The notes below the pieces were generated by a model. That model saw only the letters and a program-made list of their open reading frames with translations. It made no database searches and was not told the origin of the DNA. A stretch of 64,000 bases of DNA, taken from assembly GCF_900117395.1 (NCBI RefSeq), contig NZ_FPEG01000002.1:800445-864444 (forward strand), written 5' to 3'. Of the stretch, positions 16,267 through 64,000 are shown piece by piece (within the stretch, counting starts at the first letter, position 1; each line of letters begins with the position of its first letter). This stretch comes from Agrococcus sp. Marseille-P2731. Lineage in GTDB: Bacteria > Actinomycetota > Actinomycetes > Actinomycetales > Microbacteriaceae. The position numbers and the translations under genes are program-made.

Positions 16267-17190
16267 ATGATCCCCGAGCCCGCTTCCCACGACCGCCGCA
16301 CCGTGGCACTGCCGTGGGGAGACGTGTCCTACCTCGAATGGCAGCCCGGCACCCCGCCATCCGGATCGCCGCGACCCGCAGCGGGGGCGCCGACGGTGCT
16401 GCTGCTGCACGGCGGTGGCCTGGACTCAGCCCTGCTCTCGTGGGGCGGCATCGGCGGAGAGCTCGCGGCTGCCGGCCATCGTGTGATCGCCCCCGATCAC
16501 CCCGGCTACGGGGCCAGCACCAGGGCTCCGTGGCGGGCCTCGCAGGATCGACTCCTGGGCTACGTCGCGGCGCTGATCGATGCGCTCCAGCTCGAGCACT
16601 ACGTCATCGGCGGCCTCTCCCTCGGCGGCGGGCTCGCCATCGGGCATGCGCTCGGCCACCCGCAGCGGGTTGCCGGCCTCATGCTGCTCGGCAGCTACGG
16701 ACTCATGCGCACGATCGTGCCGGGGCGCCTGGCCGCGCCCGTGCAGCTGCTCTCCTGGCTCAGCACCCGCGCTGGCCTGCTCGCGCTCGGGACTCGCGCC
16801 ACACTGCGCAGCCGCGCCTTGCTCGACGCGAGCCTGCGGCCCGTCGTGCGCGACCCCGCGCAGCGCACACCGGAGCTGCTCGACGCCATCCTCGCCGAAG
16901 GCCGCCGGGGCACGGGCATCGAGGTCTTCGCCGAATGGCAGCGGGCAGAGGTGGGGCTGCGCACCCAGACGACCAGGTACAGCGAGCGCGTCGGGGAGCT
17001 GGCGATGCCGGTGCTCATCGTGCACGGCCAGCACGACTCCGGTGTGCCGCTCGCCGCGGCGCGCGCGGCTGCCGACACCATCCCCGACGCGCAGCTGCTC
17101 GTGGTGCCGGAAGCGGGGCACTGGGTGCAGCGCGACCGACCGGACGTCGTCGTGCCGGCGATGCAGCGCTACCTCCGCCGCCTCGCCTGA
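16267..17190 (+). CDS. Alpha/beta-hydrolase fold protein
   Basis: A 307-residue soluble hydrolase with unknown substrate. The oxyanion region LLLHGGGLDSALLSWG is near residue 50, the nucleophile elbow GGLSLGGGLA near 116-125 (serine nucleophile), an acid in VLIVHGQHDSGVPL and the catalytic histidine in EAGHWVQRDRP near the C-terminus. The long open frame upstream covers the gene-fragment region; the ATG at 16267 starts just before the conserved core and lies eight bases from TACCAT (16253-16258). Confidence 0.84.
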   Translation: MIPEPASHDRRTVALPWGDVSYLEWQPGTPPSGSPRPAAGAPTVLLLHGGGLDSALLSWGGIGGELAAAGHRVIAPDHPGYGASTRAPWRASQDRLLGYVAALIDALQLEHYVIGGLSLGGGLAIGHALGHPQRVAGLMLLGSYGLMRTIVPGRLAAPVQLLSWLSTRAGLLALGTRATLRSRALLDASLRPVVRDPAQRTPELLDAILAEGRRGTGIEVFAEWQRAEVGLRTQTTRYSERVGELAMPVLIVHGQHDSGVPLAAARAAADTIPDAQLLVVPEAGHWVQRDRPDVVVPAMQRYLRRLA

Positions 17191-53478: not shown

Positions 53479-56400
53479 TCGGTCACCTCCGGGATGACGT
53501 GGATGCGGCAGCTGCCGTAGGAGAAGCGGTTGGTGCAGTGCACGGCGGGCTGCGCGGAGAAGCTCGCGCCACCCATCGTGTCGACGGCCGTGCGCAGGTG
53601 CTCGCGGAACGCATCCGCGACCTCGTCGTAGGGGTCGGAGTCGACCCGCTTGTCCTTCCGCGAGAGCTTCGGCATGAGCAGCCGCGCCTGCGTTGGCGCG
53701 CCCTCGGCGATGCCCTCGATCGCGCCCAGCGCCACCGCGAGCTGATAGGCGCGCAGCTGCAGGTTGCCGAGCTCGGGGACGACCTTCGGCATCGACTTGC
53801 CGGTCTTGAGGTCGACGATGCGCACCCGGCCGTCGGGGTGGCGCTCGAGCCAGTCGATCGAGCCCGAGAGGGTCGCGCCGTCGAGGTCGACCGAGAAGCG
53901 CGCCTCGCGGTCACCCTGCTCGATCACCCACCCCTCGCCGCGCAGCACCTGGAAGTAGTCGGCCAGTGCCGCGGTCATCGGCGCCACCTCCTCCCGCTGC
54001 CGCGCAGCCTCCCAGCTCGACTCGTGCGCGAGCTCGGGGAAGCGAGCGTCGATGGCGGACTCGAGCGCGGCAGGATCGGTCGAATCGGCGCGCTCGACGG
54101 CGTCGTGCACGATCGTGCCGAACGCCGCCGCCCTGCTGCCCGTGCCGCCGGCGAGGCGGCCGATGATCCACGACACCTCGCAGTCCGAGAGGGTCTGCAG
54201 CGCTGACGGGCTGACGCGCACCGGTTCGTGCGCGTCGAGCCGCTCGACGCTCGTCAGTGGGGCGAGGCCCGCCCACTCCTCCGGCGCCGCCCCCGGCACG
54301 CCCCGCTCGGCGAGCCGGCGCAGCGCGGCCGCGGCGGCTGCTGCCGCCGTGGGCTCCTGCGCGGTCACGACGCGACGGCGCAGGTGGCCCACGAGCGACC
54401 GCAGCGAGTGCCAGCCATCGGTGAAGGGGGGCACCGGCTCGAGCCCGGCGACGAACGGGGAGCGCTGCTCGTCCTCGTTCTCGACGGCCGTCAGCACCAC
54501 CGAGCGCCGCGCGGTCGCGACCGCCTTGACGAACATCCGCAGCTCGTCGTGCAGCACGGCGGTGCGAGCGTCGTCGGTCTCGTCGCCCGTCAAGCGGTTC
54601 GCGCCCAGCAGGGAGCCGCGCAGGCGCAGGTTCGGCCACACGCCGTCCTGCAGCCCGGCGACGATGACGGTGTCGAGCTCGCGCCCGACGAACTGCCCCG
54701 GGGTGCCGATCGCGACCCGCGCGCCCTCGGCCCTCGCGGCGAGCGAGTCGTCGTCGACGCTCGAGGCGAGCCAGGCGTCGACGAAGCCGCCCGTGTCGAC
54801 GTCGGGGCGGCGCTCGATGAGCCGCGCCACCTGGTCGAACAGCGCCACGACGGCATCGAGCCTGCGGTTCGCCAGCGCGCGCTCCGCCCCCGCGCCGCCG
54901 AGCGCGGCCGATCGCCAGGACTCGGCGACACCGGCGGCATCCCACACTGCCCACAGCACCTGGTCGACGGATGCCGGGGTCTCGCCGCCCGCGAGCTGCC
55001 TCGCGCGCTCGATCATGCGCGCGAGGCGCCGCGCGGCGGCCACGGCGGCGCGCGCACCGGCGAGCCCCTCGAACCGCTGCGGCTGCTCGAGCGCCTCGCG
55101 CACCAGCTCGGCACCGGGCACGTGGACCTCGCCGCCTCCCGCGATGACGCTGTGCCGCAGCGCGCGCTTCAGTCGGCGCACCGCGAGCGCGTCCTGCCCC
55201 AGCAGATCGCTGCGCAGCAGCTGCTCGGCGAGGGCAGCGGTGAGCGGCACCCGATCGGCCGCCACGGCGAGCACCTGCACGAGCGCGTCGACCACGCCGA
55301 CCTCGCGCAGCCGGGTAGGACCGCCAGCCGCGACGGGCACGTCGAGCGACGCCAGCAGCGACGCGAGCTCGGAGGCGGCGCGACCGGTGCGGGCGATGAT
55401 CGCCATCTCGTCGTGGCGCACGCCGCGCGCGCGGCGCTCGTGGATCACCCGGGCGATCTGGCGCGCCTGCTCGTCGACGGAAGGGGCGATCCGCAGCTCG
55501 ACGGCGTCGCCCGCGGGGCCCGCCGGCGCCGCCCCGCGCTGGTCGCCGGCACGCGCGGTGCCGATGCGCTCGGCGGAGGACTCGGCGAGCGCGCGGATCG
55601 CCGTGCCGTGCCGGTGGTCGCGCGTGAGGCGGAGGCGATGCCCGGGCTGCGCGGCGAAGCCCAGTCGTTGCGGCAGCGCCCCGAGCAGCGCCGGATCGGC
55701 CCCGCGGAACCCGCCGGTGGTCGTGTCGGGATCGCCGAACGCCACGACGCTCGCGCCCCGCGCGCGCAGCGCCTCGAGGACCACGACCGCGCCCTCCGTG
55801 AGCTCCTGCGCGTCGTCGACGAGCACGAGCGTCGGCAGCTGCACGGTCGTCACCGCGATCTCGGCGGCCGCGCGGCGCAGCAGCGAGGCCGCCGTCACCG
55901 CCTCTGCACCGCGCCGCTCGAGCCGCTGCAGCCGGTCGAACTCGGCTATGAAGGTGCCGGCTGCGACCCACTCCTGCACGCCGCGGCTCTCGCCCTCTCG
56001 CGCCAGCGCCTCCGCCCCCATGCCGCGCTCGGCGGCAGCGGCCATCAGCTCGCGCAGCTCTGCCCGGAAGCCGGCCTGCTCGCGCACCTCGAGCCCCAGG
56101 TGCTCGGGCCAGGCCGGGCCGCTCGACTCCCCCGCCTCGGCGTCGTCGGCGTGCCCGGCGAGCATCGCGGCGATGATGCGATCCTGCTCGGCGCCCGAGA
56201 GCAGCTGCGGCGCCGACCGGCCCTCGGCGAGCGCTGCGGCGGTGAGGACCGCGTGCGCGAAGGACGGCATCGAGCGGGCGAGCGGACCGGGGGTGACGAT
56301 CGCCGTGCGGTGCGCCAGGCGGTCGCGCAGCGCTGTCGCCGCCTGGCGCGAGCCCGCCACGACGAGCAGCGCTGCCGGTGGCAGCCCAGCGCCGAGGCGC

Positions 56401-56531
56401 GCCGCCGCGAGCTCGACGAGCGTCGCCGTCTTGCCGGTGCCCGCCGCCCCGATGACGATGGCGGAGGCGGTCTCCGGCAGGGCGAGCACGGCGCGCTGCG
56501 AGGCGTCGAGGGTCACGGTCTGATCGGTCAC
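53475..56531 (-). CDS. adnA: AdnA-like helicase-nuclease (Rv3202c-type)
   Basis: A 1018-residue partner of AdnB. Walker A GAAGTGKT is at residues 28-35; Walker B reads LVLVDDAQEL with Asp in place of the catalytic Glu, a sign of a weaker motor. The C-terminal nuclease keeps the histidine (GTIVHDAVE), SIDWLE, IVDLKTGK and QLRAYQLA motifs. Cysteines in LSDCEVSW and HCTNRFSYGSC could hold an iron-sulphur cluster as in AddB. The GTG is six bases behind TACCGT (56538-56543, minus strand), so adnAB is probably a leaderless operon. Confidence 0.92.
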   Translation of the reverse strand: MTDQTVTLDASQRAVLALPETASAIVIGAAGTGKTATLVELAAARLGAGLPPAALLVVAGSRQAATALRDRLAHRTAIVTPGPLARSMPSFAHAVLTAAALAEGRSAPQLLSGAEQDRIIAAMLAGHADDAEAGESSGPAWPEHLGLEVREQAGFRAELRELMAAAAERGMGAEALAREGESRGVQEWVAAGTFIAEFDRLQRLERRGAEAVTAASLLRRAAAEIAVTTVQLPTLVLVDDAQELTEGAVVVLEALRARGASVVAFGDPDTTTGGFRGADPALLGALPQRLGFAAQPGHRLRLTRDHRHGTAIRALAESSAERIGTARAGDQRGAAPAGPAGDAVELRIAPSVDEQARQIARVIHERRARGVRHDEMAIIARTGRAASELASLLASLDVPVAAGGPTRLREVGVVDALVQVLAVAADRVPLTAALAEQLLRSDLLGQDALAVRRLKRALRHSVIAGGGEVHVPGAELVREALEQPQRFEGLAGARAAVAAARRLARMIERARQLAGGETPASVDQVLWAVWDAAGVAESWRSAALGGAGAERALANRRLDAVVALFDQVARLIERRPDVDTGGFVDAWLASSVDDDSLAARAEGARVAIGTPGQFVGRELDTVIVAGLQDGVWPNLRLRGSLLGANRLTGDETDDARTAVLHDELRMFVKAVATARRSVVLTAVENEDEQRSPFVAGLEPVPPFTDGWHSLRSLVGHLRRRVVTAQEPTAAAAAAAALRRLAERGVPGAAPEEWAGLAPLTSVERLDAHEPVRVSPSALQTLSDCEVSWIIGRLAGGTGSRAAAFGTIVHDAVERADSTDPAALESAIDARFPELAHESSWEAARQREEVAPMTAALADYFQVLRGEGWVIEQGDREARFSVDLDGATLSGSIDWLERHPDGRVRIVDLKTGKSMPKVVPELGNLQLRAYQLAVALGAIEGIAEGAPTQARLLMPKLSRKDKRVDSDPYDEVADAFREHLRTAVDTMGGASFSAQPAVHCTNRFSYGSCRIHVIPEVTE

Positions 56532-56537
56532 AGCGCC

Positions 56538-56614
56538 ACGGTATCGACGGCCGCCGACATCCGCGTTCGCCGGGCGCGCAACGGCGCGTCAGCCCGCATC
56601 CGTGTCGCTATCCT
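56538..56614. promoter_or_regulatory. Divergent promoters of adnAB and the DUF3107 gene
   Basis: TACCGT (56538-56543, minus strand) is six bases before the adnA start; TATCCT (56609-56614, plus strand) is seven bases before the DUF3107 start. An AGGAG lies between the second hexamer and the ATG but would be lost if transcription begins at the usual distance. Confidence 0.5.
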
Positions 56615-56621
56615 CAGGAGC

Positions 56622-56840
56622 ATGGACATCCGCATCGGCATCAAGGACTCTGCGCGCGAGATCGCGTTCGACTCGGCACAGGCTGCCAAGGAGATCGAGG
56701 ACACCGTGATCGCTGCCCTCGATTCCGGGCACCTCGTGCTCGACGACGCCAAGGGCCGTCGCTACATCGTGCCGAGCACGGGCATCGCCTACGTCGAGAT
56801 CGGCAGCGAGTCGACGCGCAAGATCGGCTTCGTGGCCTGA
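56622..56840 (+). CDS. DUF3107 small protein (TB9.4-like)
   Basis: A 72-residue protein with MDIRIGIKDSAREIAFDSAQ and IPSTGIAYVEIGSES-type VPSTGIAYVEIG, matching DUF3107 (Rv3208A/TB9.4). The role is unknown; members occur beside DNA-repair or DEAD-helicase genes across actinobacteria. Its last base overlaps the next ATG (TGATG). Confidence 0.88.
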   Translation: MDIRIGIKDSAREIAFDSAQAAKEIEDTVIAALDSGHLVLDDAKGRRYIVPSTGIAYVEIGSESTRKIGFVA

Positions 56841-57145
56841 TGCTCCCCATCCTCGTGCTGGTGCCCATGGTGATGGGCGCGGCGATCGGGCTGCTGGCCC
56901 GCTACCTGCTGCCGGGGCGCCAGTGGGTGGGTCTCTTCCTCAACCCGCTCGCAGCCGCTGCGGCCGCGGGCGTGGTGTGGACGATCGGCGCCGCCATGGG
57001 CGCAGGTGCGGACAACGGCTGGCTGTGGCTCGCCAGCCTCGTCGCGGCGCTCGCCGTGAGCGTCGTGCTGCCGCGGGTGCTGCCTGCACGCCGGGAGCGG
57101 GCAGACGCCGAGTACCTCGCGCAGCTGCGCGCCACCAAGGCCTGA
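56840..57145 (+). CDS. Small three-helix membrane protein
   Basis: A 101-residue hydrophobic protein with helices at about 2-22, 31-53 and 60-80 and a charged tail (PARRERADAEYLAQLRATKA). Not recognised as a named family. It starts at the last base of the DUF3107 gene, so the two are one operon. It ends 60 bases before the convergent ferritin-like gene. Confidence 0.7.
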   Translation: MLPILVLVPMVMGAAIGLLARYLLPGRQWVGLFLNPLAAAAAAGVVWTIGAAMGAGADNGWLWLASLVAALAVSVVLPRVLPARRERADAEYLAQLRATKA

Positions 57146-57205
57146 GTCCTCGCCGGACCGAGGTCCGCGCAGCGGCCCGCCGGCCGACGCTCAGGCGGCG
57201 GTCGC

Positions 57206-57931
57206 TCAGGCGGTCAGCCCCAGCTCGTCCATGCGGCGCGTGTGCGAGGCGACGATGTCGTTGAACGCCGGTTCCAGCCGCTTCTGGCTCGGCACCGCGC
57301 GACCGGTCTCGTCGAGCCCGTTGACCGCGAGGTACATCTGCAAGAGGGTGTCGCCGACCAGCCGGCGCCCCCACACGGCCATGCGGTCGGAGAGCCGCGG
57401 CGTCGCATCGATGGCCTCGCGCAGCAGGCGCACGAGGTGCGGATGCGCGCTCTCCCCGCGCAGCGCCCGCAGCATCGCGTCCTGATCCTGCTCCGGCAGA
57501 CCCGGCACGATCGCGACGAAGAAGTCCTCGAGCAGGCCGGAGGCGACGTGGATCGCCAGCAGCTGCTCGTACCAGTCGGCGCCCTCGATCGCGCTGGAGA
57601 ACTGGTGGATCGACTCGACGAAGGGGCGGATCGCCTCCTCGGGGTCGACGCCCTCTCCCTCGAGGATGCGCGCGAAGGCGCTCGCGCGGCTCGCGTGCAT
57701 CCGCACGACCTCGGCGAGCTCGGTGCGCGCGGCGAGCGTCGGCGCCTGGTCGAGCACGCGGCCCGACTTCACGACCAGCTCGAGCTCGAGCCCGAGGGCC
57801 TGGCCGACGAAGGGCACGAGCGCAGGGCGCACGTCCGAGAGCAGCACGCGGTCGCCGACGACCGGCACCCGGTGCTGCCGGAGGAGCTGGCGCGTCACGT
57901 CGCGCGGCGTCCGATCGAACCACTTCACCAC
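57206..57931 (-). CDS. Ferritin-like-fold protein (Rv3210c-like)
   Basis: A 241-residue all-helical protein with the actinobacterial ferritin-like domain: IEGADWYEQLLAIHVASGLLEDFF (about 113-136) carries Glu/His residues that could bind iron, and a second Glu/His set is less clear. In other genomes it neighbours the DEAD-box helicase, as here. The function is unknown. The GTG is seven bases behind TAGACT (57939-57944, minus strand). Confidence 0.78.
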   Translation of the reverse strand: MVKWFDRTPRDVTRQLLRQHRVPVVGDRVLLSDVRPALVPFVGQALGLELELVVKSGRVLDQAPTLAARTELAEVVRMHASRASAFARILEGEGVDPEEAIRPFVESIHQFSSAIEGADWYEQLLAIHVASGLLEDFFVAIVPGLPEQDQDAMLRALRGESAHPHLVRLLREAIDATPRLSDRMAVWGRRLVGDTLLQMYLAVNGLDETGRAVPSQKRLEPAFNDIVASHTRRMDELGLTA

Positions 57932-58017
57932 GGGAAGGAGTCTAGGGGCGGTTCGGAACCCGCCGACGCATGCCGCCGCTAGGATTGCCGGAGCATACGA
58001 ACAGGTGGAACACTCCC

Positions 58018-59547
58018 TTGACTTTCCAAGATCTCAGCATCGACGCCGACATGGTCCAGGCACTCGCCGACCGCGGCATCCTCGAGCCCTTCCCCATCCA
58101 GCAGCAGACGATCCCGCTCGCGCTGTCCGGACAGGACATCATCGGCCAGGCGAAGACCGGCACCGGCAAGACCTTCGCCTTCGGCCTCCCCCTCTCGCAG
58201 CGGCTGGGCGAGACGCCCGCGCCGGGCGTGCAGGCGCTCATCGTCGTGCCGACGCGCGAGCTCGCCGTGCAGGTGACCGAGGACATGGAGATCATCACCT
58301 CCAACCGTCCGACCACGGTCGTCTCCATCTACGGCGGCAAGGCCTACGAGGGCCAGATCGACCAGCTGAAGGCTGGCGCCCAGATCGTGGTCGGCACGCC
58401 CGGCCGCCTCCTGGACCTCGTGCAGCAGCGCATCCTCGACCTCTCGAACGTCAAGGAGATGGTGCTCGACGAGGCAGACCGCATGCTCGACCTGGGCTTC
58501 CTGCCCGACGTCGAGAAGCTGTTCTCGAAGGTGCCGGCCGTGCGCCACACGATGCTGTTCTCGGCCACGATGCCCGACGCCATCGTCGGCCTCGCCCGCC
58601 GCTTCATGTCGCGCCCGCTCCACATCCGTGCCGCCGGCGTCGACGAGACGATCGCGCAGGCCAACATCGAGCACATCGTCTACCGGGCCCACGCACTCGA
58701 CAAGGACGAGGTCGTCTCGCGCATCCTGCAGGCGGAGGGCCGCGGCAAGACCGTCGTCTTCACGCGCACGAAGCGCGCCGCCTCACGCCTCACCGAGGAG
58801 CTCATCGACCGCGGCTTCCAGGCCGCTGCCGTGCACGGCGACATGAGCCAGGAGGCTCGCGAGCGCGCCATGGCGCAGTTCAAGGCCGGCAAGAAGGATG
58901 TGCTCGTCGCCACGGACGTCGCCGCGCGCGGCATCGACGTCGACGACGTGTCGCACGTCATCAACCACACGATCCCAGAGGACGAGAAGGCCTACCTGCA
59001 CCGCGTCGGCCGCACCGGCCGCGCCGGCCGCACGGGCATCGCCGTGACCTTCGTCGACTGGGACGACCTGCACAAGTGGGCGCTCATCGATCGCGCGCTG
59101 GAGTTCAACAAGCCCGAGCCGGTCGAGACCTACTCGTCGAGCCCGCACCTCTACTCCGACCTCAACATCCCGCAGGGGGTGAAGGGCCGGCTCACGACGA
59201 CGCCGCCCCACAAGGAGGCCAAGCGCGAGGGCGTCGCACCTCGCTCCCGGGGTGGCGAGCGCGGCGGTCGCGGCAGCGAGCGCGCCGGTGAGCGCGCCGG
59301 TGAGCGCGGCAGCGAGCGCACTGATGAGCGCAGCACCGAGGGCGCCGAGGGCCAGCGGCGTCGGCGCCGCGGTGGCCGCGGGCGCTCCGGCGGCGACAGC
59401 GGGGCGGATGCTTCGCAGCAGCCCGAGGGCCGCGGCACGCACGACGGTGGTGGGGTCGAGCACCACGACGGCAACGCAGCTCCGCAGCGGCGGCGTCGGC
59501 GTCGTCGCACCGGTGGCGGCGGGGCCGCGCAGGCCCCCCAGAACTGA
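58018..59547 (+). CDS. DEAD-box RNA helicase
   Basis: A 509-residue helicase with all motifs: Q motif FPIQQQTIP, AKTGTGKT (45-52), PTRELA, GG, TPGR, DEAD (151-154), SAT, VFTRTK, ARGID and HRVGRTGRAGR. Its C-terminal 140 residues are Arg/Gly-rich (RhlE/CsdA-like RNA-binding tail) with repeats such as SERAGERAGERG. A TTG start at 58018 is preferred because AGGTGG lies nine bases upstream and a TAGGAT -10 is at 57980-57985; an earlier in-frame ATG (57970) would lie before that promoter. Probably in ribosome assembly or mRNA decay. Confidence 0.92.
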   Translation: MTFQDLSIDADMVQALADRGILEPFPIQQQTIPLALSGQDIIGQAKTGTGKTFAFGLPLSQRLGETPAPGVQALIVVPTRELAVQVTEDMEIITSNRPTTVVSIYGGKAYEGQIDQLKAGAQIVVGTPGRLLDLVQQRILDLSNVKEMVLDEADRMLDLGFLPDVEKLFSKVPAVRHTMLFSATMPDAIVGLARRFMSRPLHIRAAGVDETIAQANIEHIVYRAHALDKDEVVSRILQAEGRGKTVVFTRTKRAASRLTEELIDRGFQAAAVHGDMSQEARERAMAQFKAGKKDVLVATDVAARGIDVDDVSHVINHTIPEDEKAYLHRVGRTGRAGRTGIAVTFVDWDDLHKWALIDRALEFNKPEPVETYSSSPHLYSDLNIPQGVKGRLTTTPPHKEAKREGVAPRSRGGERGGRGSERAGERAGERGSERTDERSTEGAEGQRRRRRGGRGRSGGDSGADASQQPEGRGTHDGGGVEHHDGNAAPQRRRRRRRTGGGGAAQAPQN

Positions 59548-60903
59548 CGCGCTCCGTCCCCGGCAGTGCTCGGTGAACGGCCGCTCCGCATGCGCGGGGC
59601 GGCCGTTCGCCTTGGCGGCCTCGCGGAGCGCGCGACGCGCTCCGCGCCCGAGCGGCGCCCCGCGTTCGCGTGGCGCCTCCCGTGCTCGAGCGGCGCCTCC
59701 CGCGCTCGAGCGGCGCCTTGCGTGCTCGAGTGGCGCCTTGCGTGCTTGAGTGGCGCCTCCCGCATGTGAGTGGCGCATTGCATCGCTGAGTGGCGCCTCG
59801 CGCATGTGAGTGGCGCCTTGCGTGCTTGAGTGGCGCCTCCCGCATGTGAGTGGCGCCTTGCGTGCTTGAGTGGCGCCTCCCGCATGTGAGTGGCGCCTCC
59901 TACCCTGGACGCCGGAGGGGGAGCGCGCGGCGCCCGGCGCGCCCGTCGGGCGGCCGCACACCGCGGACGCGCTGGTCTCGCCCGGCATGGCCGCCGACCG
60001 ACGGGCCGCGAGGCCGGGCACCGCGACACCGTCGGTGGTGTGCTCCCCCAGCACGTTCGGCTTGCCGAGCCCGTGGTAGTCGCTCGAGCCGGTGACGAGG
60101 AGTCCCAGCCGCTCGGCGTCGCGGAGCAGCTGCGCCCGGTCAGCGTCGTCGTTGTCGCGGTGCCAGACCTCGACCCCGCCGAGGCCGGCGGCCGCGAGGT
60201 CGCCGAGCGCGGCCAGGTGCATGACGGGCCGCCCGCGCGCACCCGGGTGCGCGAGCACCGAGACGCCGCCGGCGTCGTGGATGATCCTGATCGCCTCCTC
60301 GGGCGCCGGCGCCCGGTGCGGCTGGTAGTAGCCGCCCTGCCAGTGCAGGATGCCGTCGAACGCGGCCGATCGGTCGGCGACGATGCCGAGCGAGACGAGC
60401 GCGTCTGCGATGTGCGGCCGCCCGATGGTCGCGCCGGGCGCCGAGTGCTCCTCGACGTGCTGCCAGGTGAGCGGGTAGTCGCGACCGATGGCGTGCACCA
60501 TGCGCTCGGCCCGCGTCACCCGCTCGGTGCGGATGCGCTCGCGCTCACCCATGAACGCCGCCGACTCTGGGTCGAGCAGGTAGCCCAGCACGTGCACGCT
60601 GGCCGGCCCGATCTGCGAGGAGAACTCGACACCGGGCAGCAGCGCGATGCCGACCTCGCGCGCCGCGTCGCTCGCCTCAGCCCAGCCCGAGACGGTGTCG
60701 TGGTCGGTGAGCGCGACGACGCCCAGCCCGGCCGCGGCCGCCGCGCGCACGACGTCGGCCGGCGCATCCGTGCCGTCTGACTCGCGCGAGTGCGCATGCA
60801 GATCGGCGGCGCCCGCGGCCGACCAGTCGAACGCCGCCGCAGCAGCCCACGCCGCCGCCGAACCGGGCGCCGCTGCTGCCTCAGGCACCCGATCTCGTTC
60901 CAT
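58783..60903 (-). CDS. PHP domain phosphoesterase with abnormal run-on 3' end
   Basis: Residues about 34-285 form a TrpH/YciV-like PHP domain (DLHAHSRESDG, VALTDHDTVSGW, LPGVEFSS, SVLAHPGARGRP, TGSSDYHG), expected to be a metal-dependent phosphoesterase or 5'-3' exonuclease on short RNA or nucleotides. Conservation ends at VLGEHTTDG (about 60045), where relatives soon stop. Here the frame has no stop and runs through the 20-bp array and the antisense of the DEAD helicase to 58783 (706 codons). The part below about 59900 is unlikely to be selected coding sequence. A TAG in another frame at 59900-59902 just before the array suggests a lost stop or a one-base indel. Leaderless ATG six bases behind TAGGCT (60910-60915). 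Confidence 0.7.
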   Translation of the reverse strand: MERDRVPEAAAAPGSAAAWAAAAAFDWSAAGAADLHAHSRESDGTDAPADVVRAAAAAGLGVVALTDHDTVSGWAEASDAAREVGIALLPGVEFSSQIGPASVHVLGYLLDPESAAFMGERERIRTERVTRAERMVHAIGRDYPLTWQHVEEHSAPGATIGRPHIADALVSLGIVADRSAAFDGILHWQGGYYQPHRAPAPEEAIRIIHDAGGVSVLAHPGARGRPVMHLAALGDLAAAGLGGVEVWHRDNDDADRAQLLRDAERLGLLVTGSSDYHGLGKPNVLGEHTTDGVAVPGLAARRSAAMPGETSASAVCGRPTGAPGAARSPSGVQGRRRHSHAGGATQARKAPLTCGRRHSSTQGATHMREAPLSDAMRHSHAGGATQARKAPLEHARRRSSAGGAARAREAPRERGAPLGRGARRALREAAKANGRPAHAERPFTEHCRGRSASVLGGLRGPAATGATTPTPPLRSCVAVVVLDPTTVVRAAALGLLRSIRPAVAAGAPAATAAPTPLALGALGAALISALAAALTGALTGALAAATAALATPGARCDALALGLLVGRRRREPALHPLRDVEVGVEVRARRVGLDRLGLVELQRAIDERPLVQVVPVDEGHGDARAAGAAGAADAVQVGLLVLWDRVVDDVRHVVDVDAARGDVRGDEHILLAGLELRHGALASLLAHVAVHGSGLEAAVDELLGEA
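59575..59608 (+). terminator. Terminator hairpin after the DEAD-box helicase
   Basis: A 10-bp perfect stem GAACGGCCGC with GCGGCCGTTC, extended by an inner CCGC/GCGG pairing, begins 28 bases after the helicase stop. There is no T-run. Confidence 0.7.
59650..59900. repeat. Array of thirteen 20-bp tandem repeats
   Basis: Units begin at 59650, 59668, 59688 and then every 20 bases to 59888 (the first unit is 18 bases, the last only partly conserved). The core is GAG(T/C)GGCGCCT; the other nine bases alternate between TGCGTGCTT and CCCGCATGT types, giving a 40-bp higher-order period at the right end. Left-hand units are more diverged (GAGC, GCGT). No spacers are present. On the plus strand each junction carries TGA and, since 20 is not a multiple of three, stops fall in all three frames; on the minus strand all frames are open. 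It fills the gap between the convergent helicase and PHP genes. Confidence 0.93.
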
Positions 60904-60909
60904 AGCGCC

Positions 60910-60982
60910 AGCCTACGCGCGGCGACCGACGGCCGCCGCGCGCCGGTGCGCAGAGCCCGCGCATGGCAGCATCGCCTACGCT
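60910..60982. promoter_or_regulatory. Divergent leaderless promoters of the PHP and EEP genes
   Basis: TAGGCT (60910-60915, minus strand) is six bases before the PHP ATG and TACGCT (60977-60982, plus strand) six bases before the GTG of the endonuclease/exonuclease/phosphatase gene. Neither start has a ribosome site. Confidence 0.55.
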
Positions 60983-60988
60983 CGCATC

Positions 60989-62011
60989 GTGCTCGCGATC
61001 CTCGGCTGGCTGCTCGCCATCGTCATCGCCGCGTGCCTGGCGCTCGCGGCGTGGCCGCAGGCGCTCGGCCTCGAGCAGGCGCCCGTGATCGCGCAGGTCG
61101 TCTCGATGCGCATCGGCGTCGTCGGCATCGCGCTCGTGCTCCTGCTGCTGTTCCTGTGCTTCGTCGGCTGGCGACGGGTGCGCCCCTTCGTGCTGGGCGT
61201 GGTCTCGCTGCTGATCGTCTTCGCGCTCGTCTCCACGGGCATCCACGTCTCGCGCGGGCTGGACGCGTCGCAGTCGGTCGACGGCTCGGGCGACGACCTC
61301 GTCGTGCTCACGTGGAACACCCTCGGCGACGAGCCGGGCGTCGACGAGATCGCCCGCATCATCGACGAGACGGGGGCGGATGCGGTGATGCTGCCCGAGA
61401 CGACCCTCACGACGGGCGTCGCGGTCGCCGAGCTGCTGCGAGCGGCGGACAAGCGCTTCTGGGTGCTCACCAACGGCTACTCCCCCGCCTACGGCGCGCT
61501 CAACACCACGCTGCTCGTCTCCGCCGAGCTCGGCCGCTACACCGCCGACCAGGAGGTGGGCGGCACCCGCACCCTGCCGACGGTGGTCGCCCGCCCGCAG
61601 GACGGTGACGGACCGGTGTTCGTCTCGACGCATCCCGTCGCGCCGGTGCCGCAGCAGATGCGCAACTGGCGCGCCGACCTCGAGTTCGTCGCTGGGCTCT
61701 GCGACGGCTCCGACTCCGTGATCATGGGCGGCGACTTCAACTCGACCGTCGATCACTGGTGGGCGCACCGCGCAGCGCTCGCGGACGGCACCATGGGCGA
61801 CCTCGGCGTGTGCCGGGACGCGGCATCGGCGGTCGGCGCGGGCGCGGTCGGCACGTGGCCGACCTGGGCGCCGCCGTGGCTGGGGGCCAACATCGACCAC
61901 GTCGTCGCGACCTCCGACTGGACGCCCGTCTCCGCCCGCGTGCTGACGGGCCTCGACGACTCGGGCACCGATCACCGCCCGGTCGTCGTGCAGCTGCGCC
62001 GCACCGGCTGA
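60989..62011 (+). CDS. Endonuclease/exonuclease/phosphatase family membrane protein
   Basis: A 340-residue protein. Three N-terminal membrane helices (about 2-25, 36-58 and 64-82) anchor an extracytoplasmic EEP domain with TWNTLGDE (metal-binding Asn), MLPETTLT (catalytic Glu), GGDFNSTVDH (Asp/Asn) and GTDHRPVVVQL (Asp-His). It could act on extracellular nucleic acid, phosphoinositides or other phosphodiesters. The GTG start is leaderless. Confidence 0.86.
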   Translation: MLAILGWLLAIVIAACLALAAWPQALGLEQAPVIAQVVSMRIGVVGIALVLLLLFLCFVGWRRVRPFVLGVVSLLIVFALVSTGIHVSRGLDASQSVDGSGDDLVVLTWNTLGDEPGVDEIARIIDETGADAVMLPETTLTTGVAVAELLRAADKRFWVLTNGYSPAYGALNTTLLVSAELGRYTADQEVGGTRTLPTVVARPQDGDGPVFVSTHPVAPVPQQMRNWRADLEFVAGLCDGSDSVIMGGDFNSTVDHWWAHRAALADGTMGDLGVCRDAASAVGAGAVGTWPTWAPPWLGANIDHVVATSDWTPVSARVLTGLDDSGTDHRPVVVQLRRTG

Positions 62012-62039
62012 GCCCGCCACGAGCATCAGCGCCCGGGCG

Positions 62040-62786
62040 TCAGGGGCGAGGGGCGGCGAGGTCGTCGCGGTCGGAGGGCGCGGGCACCAGCTCGTCGATC
62101 GCGGCCAGCACGGCGCGCGCGGCCTCCCGCGTCGCGAGCGGGCGGAAGTGACCGTTCGCGCGCAGCCGCACACCGGTGACGCCCTCGGGGATCTGGTTCT
62201 CGGGGATGTGCGGGTCGATGCCCGGCAGGATCACGCGGATGCGCAGGTCGGCGCCGCGCTCCGCCGCGAGCGCGAGCAGCCGCTCGTCGGTCGGGTCGAA
62301 CTCGCGGATGGCCGGCACCCGCAGCAGCAGCCTCGCCCGGCTCGAGCCCGCGAAGGGCGTCGCGAGCGCGATCAGCCCGGCAGGCTGCGGCGTGGTCGGC
62401 TCCACCGCGCGGTCGATGAGCAGCCGCTTGCCGGAGAGCCCGCCCTTGGAGTGCCCGACGAGCACGACCTGCGCGTGCGGATGCGCGGCGGCGACCCGGT
62501 CGAGCGCGGCACCCACGATCACCGCCGCCTCGCGCACGGGCACCGTGTGCCGGTCGAGCTCCGGCAGGAAGTGCACGGCGTGACCGGCCGCCACCAGGTG
62601 CCGAGCGAGCGGCTCCATGAACGGCCAGCGCTCGATGACGCCGGGGATGAGCACGACGTGGACCCGAGCGCCCGGCATGCCCCGCAGGCGCGGCGGGCGC
62701 GGGTCGAGCGTCGACCGCACGTGCATGCGCGCGGCGAAGGCGTAGTCGCGCGCCCAGACGGCGACCTCCCGCGGCGTGATGCTCAT
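62040..62786 (-). CDS. Lipase-like alpha/beta hydrolase
   Basis: A 248-residue serine hydrolase. VVLIPGVIERWPFMEPLARHL is the oxyanion region, GHSKGG (about 133-138) the nucleophile elbow, an aspartate in the LPGIDPHIPENQ region and a histidine in ANGHFRPL complete a plausible triad. The LIPGVxE pattern resembles triacylglycerol lipase/PGAP1-like proteins. ATG 62786 overlaps the stop of the upstream hydrolase (ATGA), so the pair is co-translated. Confidence 0.82.
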   Translation of the reverse strand: MSITPREVAVWARDYAFAARMHVRSTLDPRPPRLRGMPGARVHVVLIPGVIERWPFMEPLARHLVAAGHAVHFLPELDRHTVPVREAAVIVGAALDRVAAAHPHAQVVLVGHSKGGLSGKRLLIDRAVEPTTPQPAGLIALATPFAGSSRARLLLRVPAIREFDPTDERLLALAAERGADLRIRVILPGIDPHIPENQIPEGVTGVRLRANGHFRPLATREAARAVLAAIDELVPAPSDRDDLAAPRP

Positions 62787-63577
62787 CCGACGAACTCCTC
62801 GAGGATGGCGGCCAGGCGGTCGGCGCCCGTGACGATCGATTCGTGCCCACAGTCCTCGATGGTGCGCAGCGCCCCGTCGGGCAGCGCATCCACCACCTCG
62901 TGCGCCCAGTCCGGTGGGCAGACGCGATCCTGATCGCCGCGGATCACGAGCGCCGGCTGCACGATGTGCGGCAGCGGGGTCCGGAGGTCGTGCTCGAGCA
63001 TCGTGCGCAGCTTGCGGAGGTACCAGCGCGGGCCTGCCCGCAGGTAGAGCCGCGCTCCCACGGCGATGACGATCGGGGGGTCGTTCCTGAGGTCCTGCAC
63101 CATGCGCAGCCCCTGCTGCCACGCAGAGCGCTCGGCCGGGTTCACGGTCGGGGACACGAACGCGACGCGCTCGACGAGCGCGGGATGCCGCGCAGCGACC
63201 TCGGCGACGATCTGCGCGCCCATCGAGTGGCCGACGAGGATCGCCGGCGTCTGCACGAGGGATGCGAGCGCCGCGGCCACGAGGTCGGCGAGCTCCACCA
63301 TCGGCAGCGAGGTGGCCGGTTCGGGTGACTGCCCGAAGCCGGGCAGGTCGAGCGCGACGACGTCGAACGATCGCGACAGCTGCGCCCGCAGCATGCCGAA
63401 GGACTGCTGCCCCATACCGAGCCCGTGCACGAGCACCACCGTCGGCGCTCCCGCCCTGGCCCAGCGGTGGAGCAGCACGACGTGATCGCCCTCGACGTGT
63501 GCCGCGACGCTCGCCCCCGACGCTGCATCGGTCGCGGCGCGCCACTCGGCGAAGGTCGGCCGCGGCGCTGTTCTCAT
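62783..63577 (-). CDS. Alpha/beta-hydrolase fold protein
   Basis: A 264-residue hydrolase with VVLVHGLGMGQQSF (oxyanion loop), LDLPGFGQSP, nucleophile elbow VGHSMGAQI (serine about 133), acid in GDQDRVCPP and histidine in EDCGHESIV. It resembles haloalkane-dehalogenase/epoxide-hydrolase-type or lipase-like enzymes; substrate unknown. The ATG is six bases behind TACCCT (63584-63589, minus strand). Confidence 0.85.
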   Translation of the reverse strand: MRTAPRPTFAEWRAATDAASGASVAAHVEGDHVVLLHRWARAGAPTVVLVHGLGMGQQSFGMLRAQLSRSFDVVALDLPGFGQSPEPATSLPMVELADLVAAALASLVQTPAILVGHSMGAQIVAEVAARHPALVERVAFVSPTVNPAERSAWQQGLRMVQDLRNDPPIVIAVGARLYLRAGPRWYLRKLRTMLEHDLRTPLPHIVQPALVIRGDQDRVCPPDWAHEVVDALPDGALRTIEDCGHESIVTGADRLAAILEEFVG

Positions 63578-63636
63578 CCCTCCAGGGTAGGACGGCGTGC
63601 CTGCGAACCCGCTCCCCCGGCCCTCATCCGCAGGGC

Positions 63637-64000
63637 TCACGGCGCCGGGTGCGCGTCCGCATCGGGCAGCTCCCGCATGGCCCAGAACGGCCCGATCACA
63701 ACGCAGAGCGCCGACAGCAGCTGCCCGACCGCGGCGATCCACATCGTCGGCACGACGCCGAGCCAGGTGCCGAGCACGCCCGCGAGCAGCGCCGCGATCG
63801 GCATGACGCCCCAGACGCAGAACCGCACGGATGCGTTCATGCGGCCGAGGAGGCGCGGCGGCGTGATGCGCTGCCGGAAGGTGACCTGGGTGATGTTGTA
63901 GAGGAGCACGGTGAAGCTGCCGATGAAGCCCTGCACGACGAGCAGCGGGAAGGCGACGGCCGGAAAGGTCGCGGCGAGCGGCAGCATGCAGGCCACCGCG
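63637..64000 (-). CDS. MFS transporter, 3' part only
   Basis: The C-terminal about 120 residues of a membrane transporter, continuing beyond the right edge of the window. Helices include PLLVVQGFIGSFTVLLYNI and VWGVMPIAALLAGVLGTWLG, with TFRQRITPPRLLGRMNASVRF between them, a loop typical of the macrolide-efflux (MefA-like) MFS branch. Start and full length are not visible. Confidence 0.8.
   Translation of the reverse strand, partial: AVACMLPLAATFPAVAFPLLVVQGFIGSFTVLLYNITQVTFRQRITPPRLLGRMNASVRFCVWGVMPIAALLAGVLGTWLGVVPTMWIAAVGQLLSALCVVIGPFWAMRELPDADAHPAP

Follow-up and report, generated by a model that had tools for sequence, protein, structure and literature searches.

Why should thirteen copies of a 20-bp unit stand head-to-tail where two convergent genes of an Agrococcus genome end? 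The array lies in the 64,000-nucleotide stretch of DNA that was analyzed (the window), and the explanation that we favor, at a probability of about 0.6, is that it belongs, as an arm of one element, to a REPIN-like system of dispersed repeats whose partner would be a nuclease of the AbiEi-DUF559 type and whose arms have, in Agrococcus, grown into arrays.

The array and its setting

The locus comprises the following features:

57970..59547, + strand: DEAD-box helicase gene, upstream of the array (from the list of open reading frames; product named from its sequence)
59575..59608, + strand: GC-rich hairpin GAACGGCCG .. CGGCCGTTC, between the helicase stop codon and the array (found by eye)
59650..59907, + strand: array in which 13 units of 20 bp make up a single arm of a facing-pair element (from TRF and a listing of units)
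59904..60010, + strand: copy, in inverted orientation, of segment 60361-60467 within the PHP gene, 88 of 107 bases being equal (orthologous loci compared)
60011..60903, - strand: PHP-domain gene, convergent with the helicase gene (from the list of open reading frames and homologs)

An earlier note, made from the sequence of the window, had counted thirteen units, and all thirteen starts can be mapped (59650, 59668, 59688 and so on to 59888). Each unit is GAGYGGCGCC followed by ten variable bases. The exact 20-bp spacing that the note described holds for 11 steps and fails for the first, which is 18 bp; its core, GAG(T/C)GGCGCCT, is exact in 10 of the 13 units, but the GGCGCC palindrome at its heart is not conserved over the family to which the array belongs. 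TRF finds a period of 20 over 59666-59900 and a period of 40 (4.3 copies, 92% matches) over 59728-59898, where the right-hand part alternates two variants: the two alternating halves and the greater regularity of the right side had been correctly read. With at most one mismatch allowed, GAGTGGCGCCT matches 12 times in the window, always within the array and in register (shuffles average 4.31 matches; 12 matches anywhere were reached in 1 of 100). The units adjoin one another without the unique spacers of a CRISPR, which the note had rightly set aside, and Rfam yields three matches over 55000-64000, every one of them below its family's gathering score.

The proposal that the GGCGCC cores lie on one face of the helix does not survive simple arithmetic: at 10.5 bp per turn, 20 bp make 1.9 turns, each core is turned by -34 degrees relative to the one before it (-411 degrees after all 12 steps), and the cores therefore do not all share a face. 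Neither is helical phasing a conserved feature, the period being 21 bp at a locus (L236) of G007, a genome on a deep Agrococcus branch.

The helicase (+) and PHP (-) genes do converge on the array, as had been noted, but the gap between them is imperfect: the minus-strand PHP frame does not close until 58783, having crossed the array and run against the helicase gene, so that it measures 709 aa in the window and ~290-310 aa in most homologs. In orthologous loci, the place of segment 59904-60010 is taken by the last part of the PHP gene together with a minus-strand arm that faces the array. Judging from this alignment, the native end of the gene and the usual right-hand arm seem to have been replaced, in this one genome, by a small inverted duplication; apparently the PHP frame runs on through the array because its native end was replaced. 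The inward-facing partner array is absent from the window's copy, and for that reason could not be seen by the author of the earlier note. Unit numbers at the orthologous helicase-PHP gap vary (12, 3+4, 6+10, 8+6, 3+11). The hairpin at 59575-59608 is also found in relatives that have no array at the same place (L146, L147, L151).

A dispersed family of facing arrays

Is the array a local accident? The two-unit pattern, at one mismatch or less, has 116 matches in the window's own genome (G000) against 2 for the reversed pattern. These matches form at least 11 loci, 8 of the 11 with two facing arrays and three (the window's, L143 and the first of L144) with one. A search of 84,980 species genomes with an exact pair pattern brought up 45 stretches, every one of them titled Agrococcus. 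With a sequence model of four units, arrays are detected in 19 of 24 Agrococcus genomes and in 17 of the 19 that are of high quality (its matches in G007, G008 and G014 are weak), and a scan of Microbacteriaceae finds them in 10 of 398 genomes, nine being Agrococcus and one belonging to another genus. The search for further copies that the earlier note had recommended thus returns at least 11 loci in the genome, biased to convergent gaps; a local slippage accident, which would have had no other genomic copy, can be discarded. Slippage could explain the turnover of units within an array but not the existence of a family. Among the options that had been listed, "a mobile or self-spreading intergenic repeat" fits best, given the number of loci, the genus-wide family and the convergent-gap bias.

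The family has a recognizable profile: within the unit, hardly any change is seen at positions 1-3 and 5-6, the bases at 7-9 vary jointly, and 17-20 are variable. Positions 7-10 read TCAC, CCAC, CCGC or CGAC in other species, whose arrays carry the cores GAGCGGTCAC (G004 and G009), GAGTGGCCGC (G015), GAGTGGCCAC (G001) and GAGTGGCGAC (G019); GGCGCC is thus one core among several, and its palindrome no hallmark of the family. The core triplet is common to the loci of a species and differs between species. Whole-genome counts of CGC-type/TCA-type pairs, which are free of the bias introduced by core-specific fetching, are 116/0 in G000, 3/59 in G004 and 5/40 in G009, and both types occur in G010 (48/29), G016 (31/79) and G018 (69/28). 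Core identity is 0.72 between the loci of one genome as against 0.51 between orthologous arms of different genomes, in a comparison of 132 of 134 arrays whose sample is biased by the core-specific patterns with which loci were fetched. Units inside one array are alike (core 0.84, tail 0.68); the identity of tails is 0.45 between the two arms of one cluster and 0.50 between arrays of different loci.

Some irregular members deserve mention in their own right. The 21-bp-period array of G007 (L236:1501-1592) has the core GAGTGGTCAC. In G072, from another genus, a 20-bp array, GAGGGGGCCACTCAGGGACC, adjoins a REP-like-looking stretch of TTCGACAAGCTCAGGG (L250).

The orientation of arms was scored in 83 de-duplicated clusters from the fetched Agrococcus loci, a set that includes orthologous loci and whose members are accordingly not independent. 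Both orientations are present in 44 clusters, and in 44/44 the arms face inward, as inverted doublets, the arrangement typical of the REP/REPIN class. Both neighboring genes could be called for 71 of the 83 (12 being unclassifiable): convergent gaps number 43, codirectional ones 24 and divergent ones 4, as compared with 30, 109 and 37, respectively, among 176 other gene pairs of the window's own genome. (A technical note: genes were called by means of a simple codon model for which the window served as training set; this caller makes errors in L103 and L176 at the nuclease locus and misses the window's PHP gene, so that the window is scored as codirectional although by hand it is convergent.) In many clusters the arms begin shortly after stop codons.

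Two ideas about the unit itself were tried and dropped: 1) a hairpin within it (positions 3-6 with 13-16), the paired fraction being equal to expectation at all four pairs, with no covariation; 2) a Rho-dependent terminator, the unit containing ~36% C and ~37% G (summed by hand) and hence no excess of C.

Nuclease genes flanked by facing repeats

At one conserved Agrococcus locus a gene is located between the two array arms. The predicted fold of its product joins an AbiEi-type part, the fold found in the AbiE type IV toxin-antitoxin system, to a Vsr/homing-endonuclease part (Vsr/I-Bth0305I), and E189, D221, E232, H238 and D247 are invariant across 20 homologs. On fold model and active-site residues, the protein is predicted to be a nuclease of the Vsr/homing-endonuclease kind. 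Unlike in the Vsr and EDxHD homing endonucleases, the nuclease part is here joined to an AbiEi-type part. Of 120 Microbacteriaceae genomes, 87 have members of the AbiEi-DUF559 family, and a single genome can have as many as 12 matches. Five of its proteins were put to annotation tools: NCBIfam places no family above cut-off for any of them, and PADLOC calls AbiEi for one. No AbiEii-like nucleotidyltransferase gene was recognized by eye among the neighbors of the window genome's own nuclease gene, which lies at G000:C2:448522-449400. The Y1 transposase of RAYTs (PF01797) was found in 0 of 24 Agrococcus genomes by a search that, as a control, found it in 5 of 14 known genomes.

Gene and arrays can be parted. 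In G004 the nuclease gene at the conserved locus is broken though the arrays are retained, which shows that arrays can persist without it; G020, a 65% complete genome, has a 54% homolog of the nuclease, and no array was found in it. Co-occurrence of gene and array over species is confounded by descent. Homologs with interrupted frames are seen at L287 (G004), L305 (G113) and G000:C1:1267257-1268048, and beside another homolog, in G014 (L285), a GACTGGCCACGAACGGCACC-like 20-mer is repeated seven-fold.

The gaps around Agrococcus nuclease homologs carry facing repeats whose motif often differs from gene to gene. To score the association, 350 bp on the left of a gene were compared with 350 bp on its right, and the best ungapped match was taken, with a threshold of 18. 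That score is reached at 15/16 loci of the orthologous group, 11/14 other Agrococcus homologs and 13/28 homologs of other genera (the loci returned for the best family matches), the remaining 15/28 falling below it. Ten of 207 control genes also reach 18; seven of them are apparently homologs themselves, as they come from stretches that had been fetched on account of a homolog, and the other three are window 16396-17190, L128 and L332:3099-3740. In a second set from other genera, 25/40 homologs reach the threshold (15/40 fall below) versus 1/478 control genes (Fisher p 3.9e-31); the 40 loci were chosen down the best-match list rather than at random and come partly from the same genomes as the 28, and the controls are from G085, G030 and G006, one homolog having been removed. 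Inverted repeats with a score of at least 13 are found in both flanks at 30/82 loci versus 1/150 controls, and in either flank at 65/82 versus 22/150, these controls being uncleared of homologs; the strong ones mostly span ~55-67 bp. The motif also differs among the homologs of a single genome, as is seen at five loci of G085 and three of G030. A tracking of protein identity by motif likeness was rejected: rho is 0.08, dominated by shared neighborhoods, and there is none beyond these. As for the control gene in the window (16396-17190), its flanks have a direct repeat of ~59 bases in common (score 47).

Do the motifs of these genes also travel alone? Motifs from 10 nuclease loci were sought in 400-kb samples of G085, G030 and G006. 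Six of the ten occur as solo facing pairs away from the gene, at 10 places, with a motif-to-motif span of 49-57 bp; the motifs of L304, L409, L424 and L331 have no solo copy in these samples. Seven of the 10 places lie between convergent genes (binomial p 3e-4 against 30/176), and in convergent gaps the pairs stand 20-95 bp after stop codons. Single matches number 39 for true motifs and 10 for reversed ones; pairing was checked on the true matches. In G006 the S20-holA gap, a site of GAGYGG arrays in other species, contains four facing pairs of the GGTACCGAA family, copies of which also flank a G006 nuclease homolog on both sides; the family that occupies a given gap can therefore differ from species to species. 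In the same gap of G002 (L204), another repeated motif, around GACGGATCGTCC, is seen where other species carry arrays.

So many repeats just beyond stop codons bring termination to mind, and the arrays might be terminators or roadblocks, tandem sites or hairpins that are kept by selection on the host and halt transcripts in convergent gaps, with the nuclease connection being secondary. The convergent bias of the clusters, arms that begin close after stop codons and the like placement of solo pairs in other genera all speak for this. It nevertheless seems unlikely to us: the helicase gene is already followed by a separate hairpin, which persists in relatives without the array, the unit contains no covarying hairpin, four clusters sit in divergent gaps, and a terminator role gives no reason to expect that nuclease genes should have a shared pair on either side. 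That hosts make some use of arrays, for example as terminators, is possible alongside a repeat-and-nuclease system.

Known systems and a proposed mechanism

The nearest counterpart is the REP/REPIN-RAYT system. In PMC3116915 and PMC3733652, REPs are described as short intergenic inverted doublets of several kinds per genome, each kind clustering beside its own enzyme gene, with a preference for convergent and unidirectional gaps and occasional tandem arrays. The Agrococcus and Microbacteriaceae repeats likewise are facing doublets in gaps, of several kinds, with an enzyme gene of their own kind and with tandem arrays. The differences are equally plain: the arms lack a GTAG tag and have the unit profile GAGYGG..., each Agrococcus arm is a direct array of 20-bp units, and the enzyme gene that is flanked by its own repeat kind encodes no RAYT but an AbiEi-type fold with a Vsr/homing-endonuclease-type fold, no Y1 transposase having been found in the 24 Agrococcus genomes. 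The CGTC-tagged REPs (PMC3733652) also do without a dedicated RAYT, but the Agrococcus unit has no CGTC tag and here a candidate enzyme can be named. The TAACTGA repeats of Beggiatoaceae are similarly abundant short intergenic direct repeats of one bacterial group, but their unit is 7 bp rather than 20 bp, with a post-transcriptional role proposed in PMC4679880.

The partner protein directs attention to AbiE. AbiEi reportedly binds a pair of inverted repeats, up to 23 bp in length and 3 bp apart (PMC3985639): two facing repeats similar in size to the pairs considered here, and close to them in geometry. The AbiEi-type fold is in common; unlike AbiE, the protein has a fused nuclease part, the pairs stand on both sides of its gene, and no AbiEii-like gene was recognized adjoining the window genome's own copy. 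An AbiEi/nuclease-fold gene between such arrays, and homologs flanked by facing repeats, make the "protein-binding array" of the earlier note plausible.

Might the repeats then be operators? The partner would be an AbiEi-type regulator, its flanking pairs its own control sites and the solo pairs a regulon or decoys, with the nuclease part serving, for example, in defense. The AbiEi-type fold and the binding of AbiEi to inverted repeats at its own promoter (PMC3985639) would suit such a scheme, which we consider quite improbable because the pairs occupy both sides of the gene, and most arrays and solo pairs lie not upstream of genes but where the 3' ends of convergent genes meet. Least probable are neutral minisatellites born of replication slippage and chance recombination with no partner enzyme, which would account for the likeness of units within an array and for variable unit numbers at the helicase-PHP gap, but not for 44/44 facing clusters, convergent bias, species-wide cores and nuclease-gene flanks.

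A REPIN-like system with a nuclease partner might work as follows. The basic Microbacteriaceae element is a facing pair of ~20-bp arms, ~50-67 bp in its whole span, placed in gene gaps, often between convergent genes and also, with a gene-specific motif, on both sides of AbiEi-DUF559 genes. The N-terminal AbiEi-type part would recognize and bind the units of the arms; the nuclease part would cut or nick the facing repeats; repair of the break would copy units, and make them uniform, both inside a locus and from one locus to another. One such family has, in Agrococcus, arms that have expanded into arrays of 20-bp units dispersed over many loci. What the analysis itself establishes is the association of repeats with nuclease genes; that these repeats are bound, cut and spread is inferred. 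Recognition by the N-terminal part and cutting by the nuclease are proposed because the arrangement mirrors RAYT/REPIN and because AbiEi binds similar inverted repeats. A more ambitious version, to which we would give even odds, is that AbiEi-Vsr-type nucleases, several per genome, each maintain and spread their own ~57-bp facing pairs between convergent genes (facing arrays of 20-bp units in Agrococcus), as a non-homologous counterpart of RAYT-REPIN in which protein and repeat co-evolve species-wide.

If an unrelated nuclease family is indeed tied to such repeats, then repeat-plus-enzyme systems arose more than once; an uncharacterized family that most of the 120 Microbacteriaceae genomes (87) possess would acquire a testable role, and many natural repeat-enzyme pairs would become available for studying the evolution of DNA recognition. 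In the open-access literature, outside which most subscription papers lie, no paper was found among the matches listed on AbiEi-DUF559 genes with flanking or dispersed repeats; the same literature yielded none on DUF559 and AbiEi together, and none on intergenic tandem repeats in Agrococcus.

One small regularity of the flanking arms may be added. At the 82 loci they often start with CGA or CGAG: GAG falls within the first 6 bases of 52/190 arms, as compared with 14 for an inner stretch of the same length. CGA/CGAG at the outer ends of arms is possibly a shared tag.
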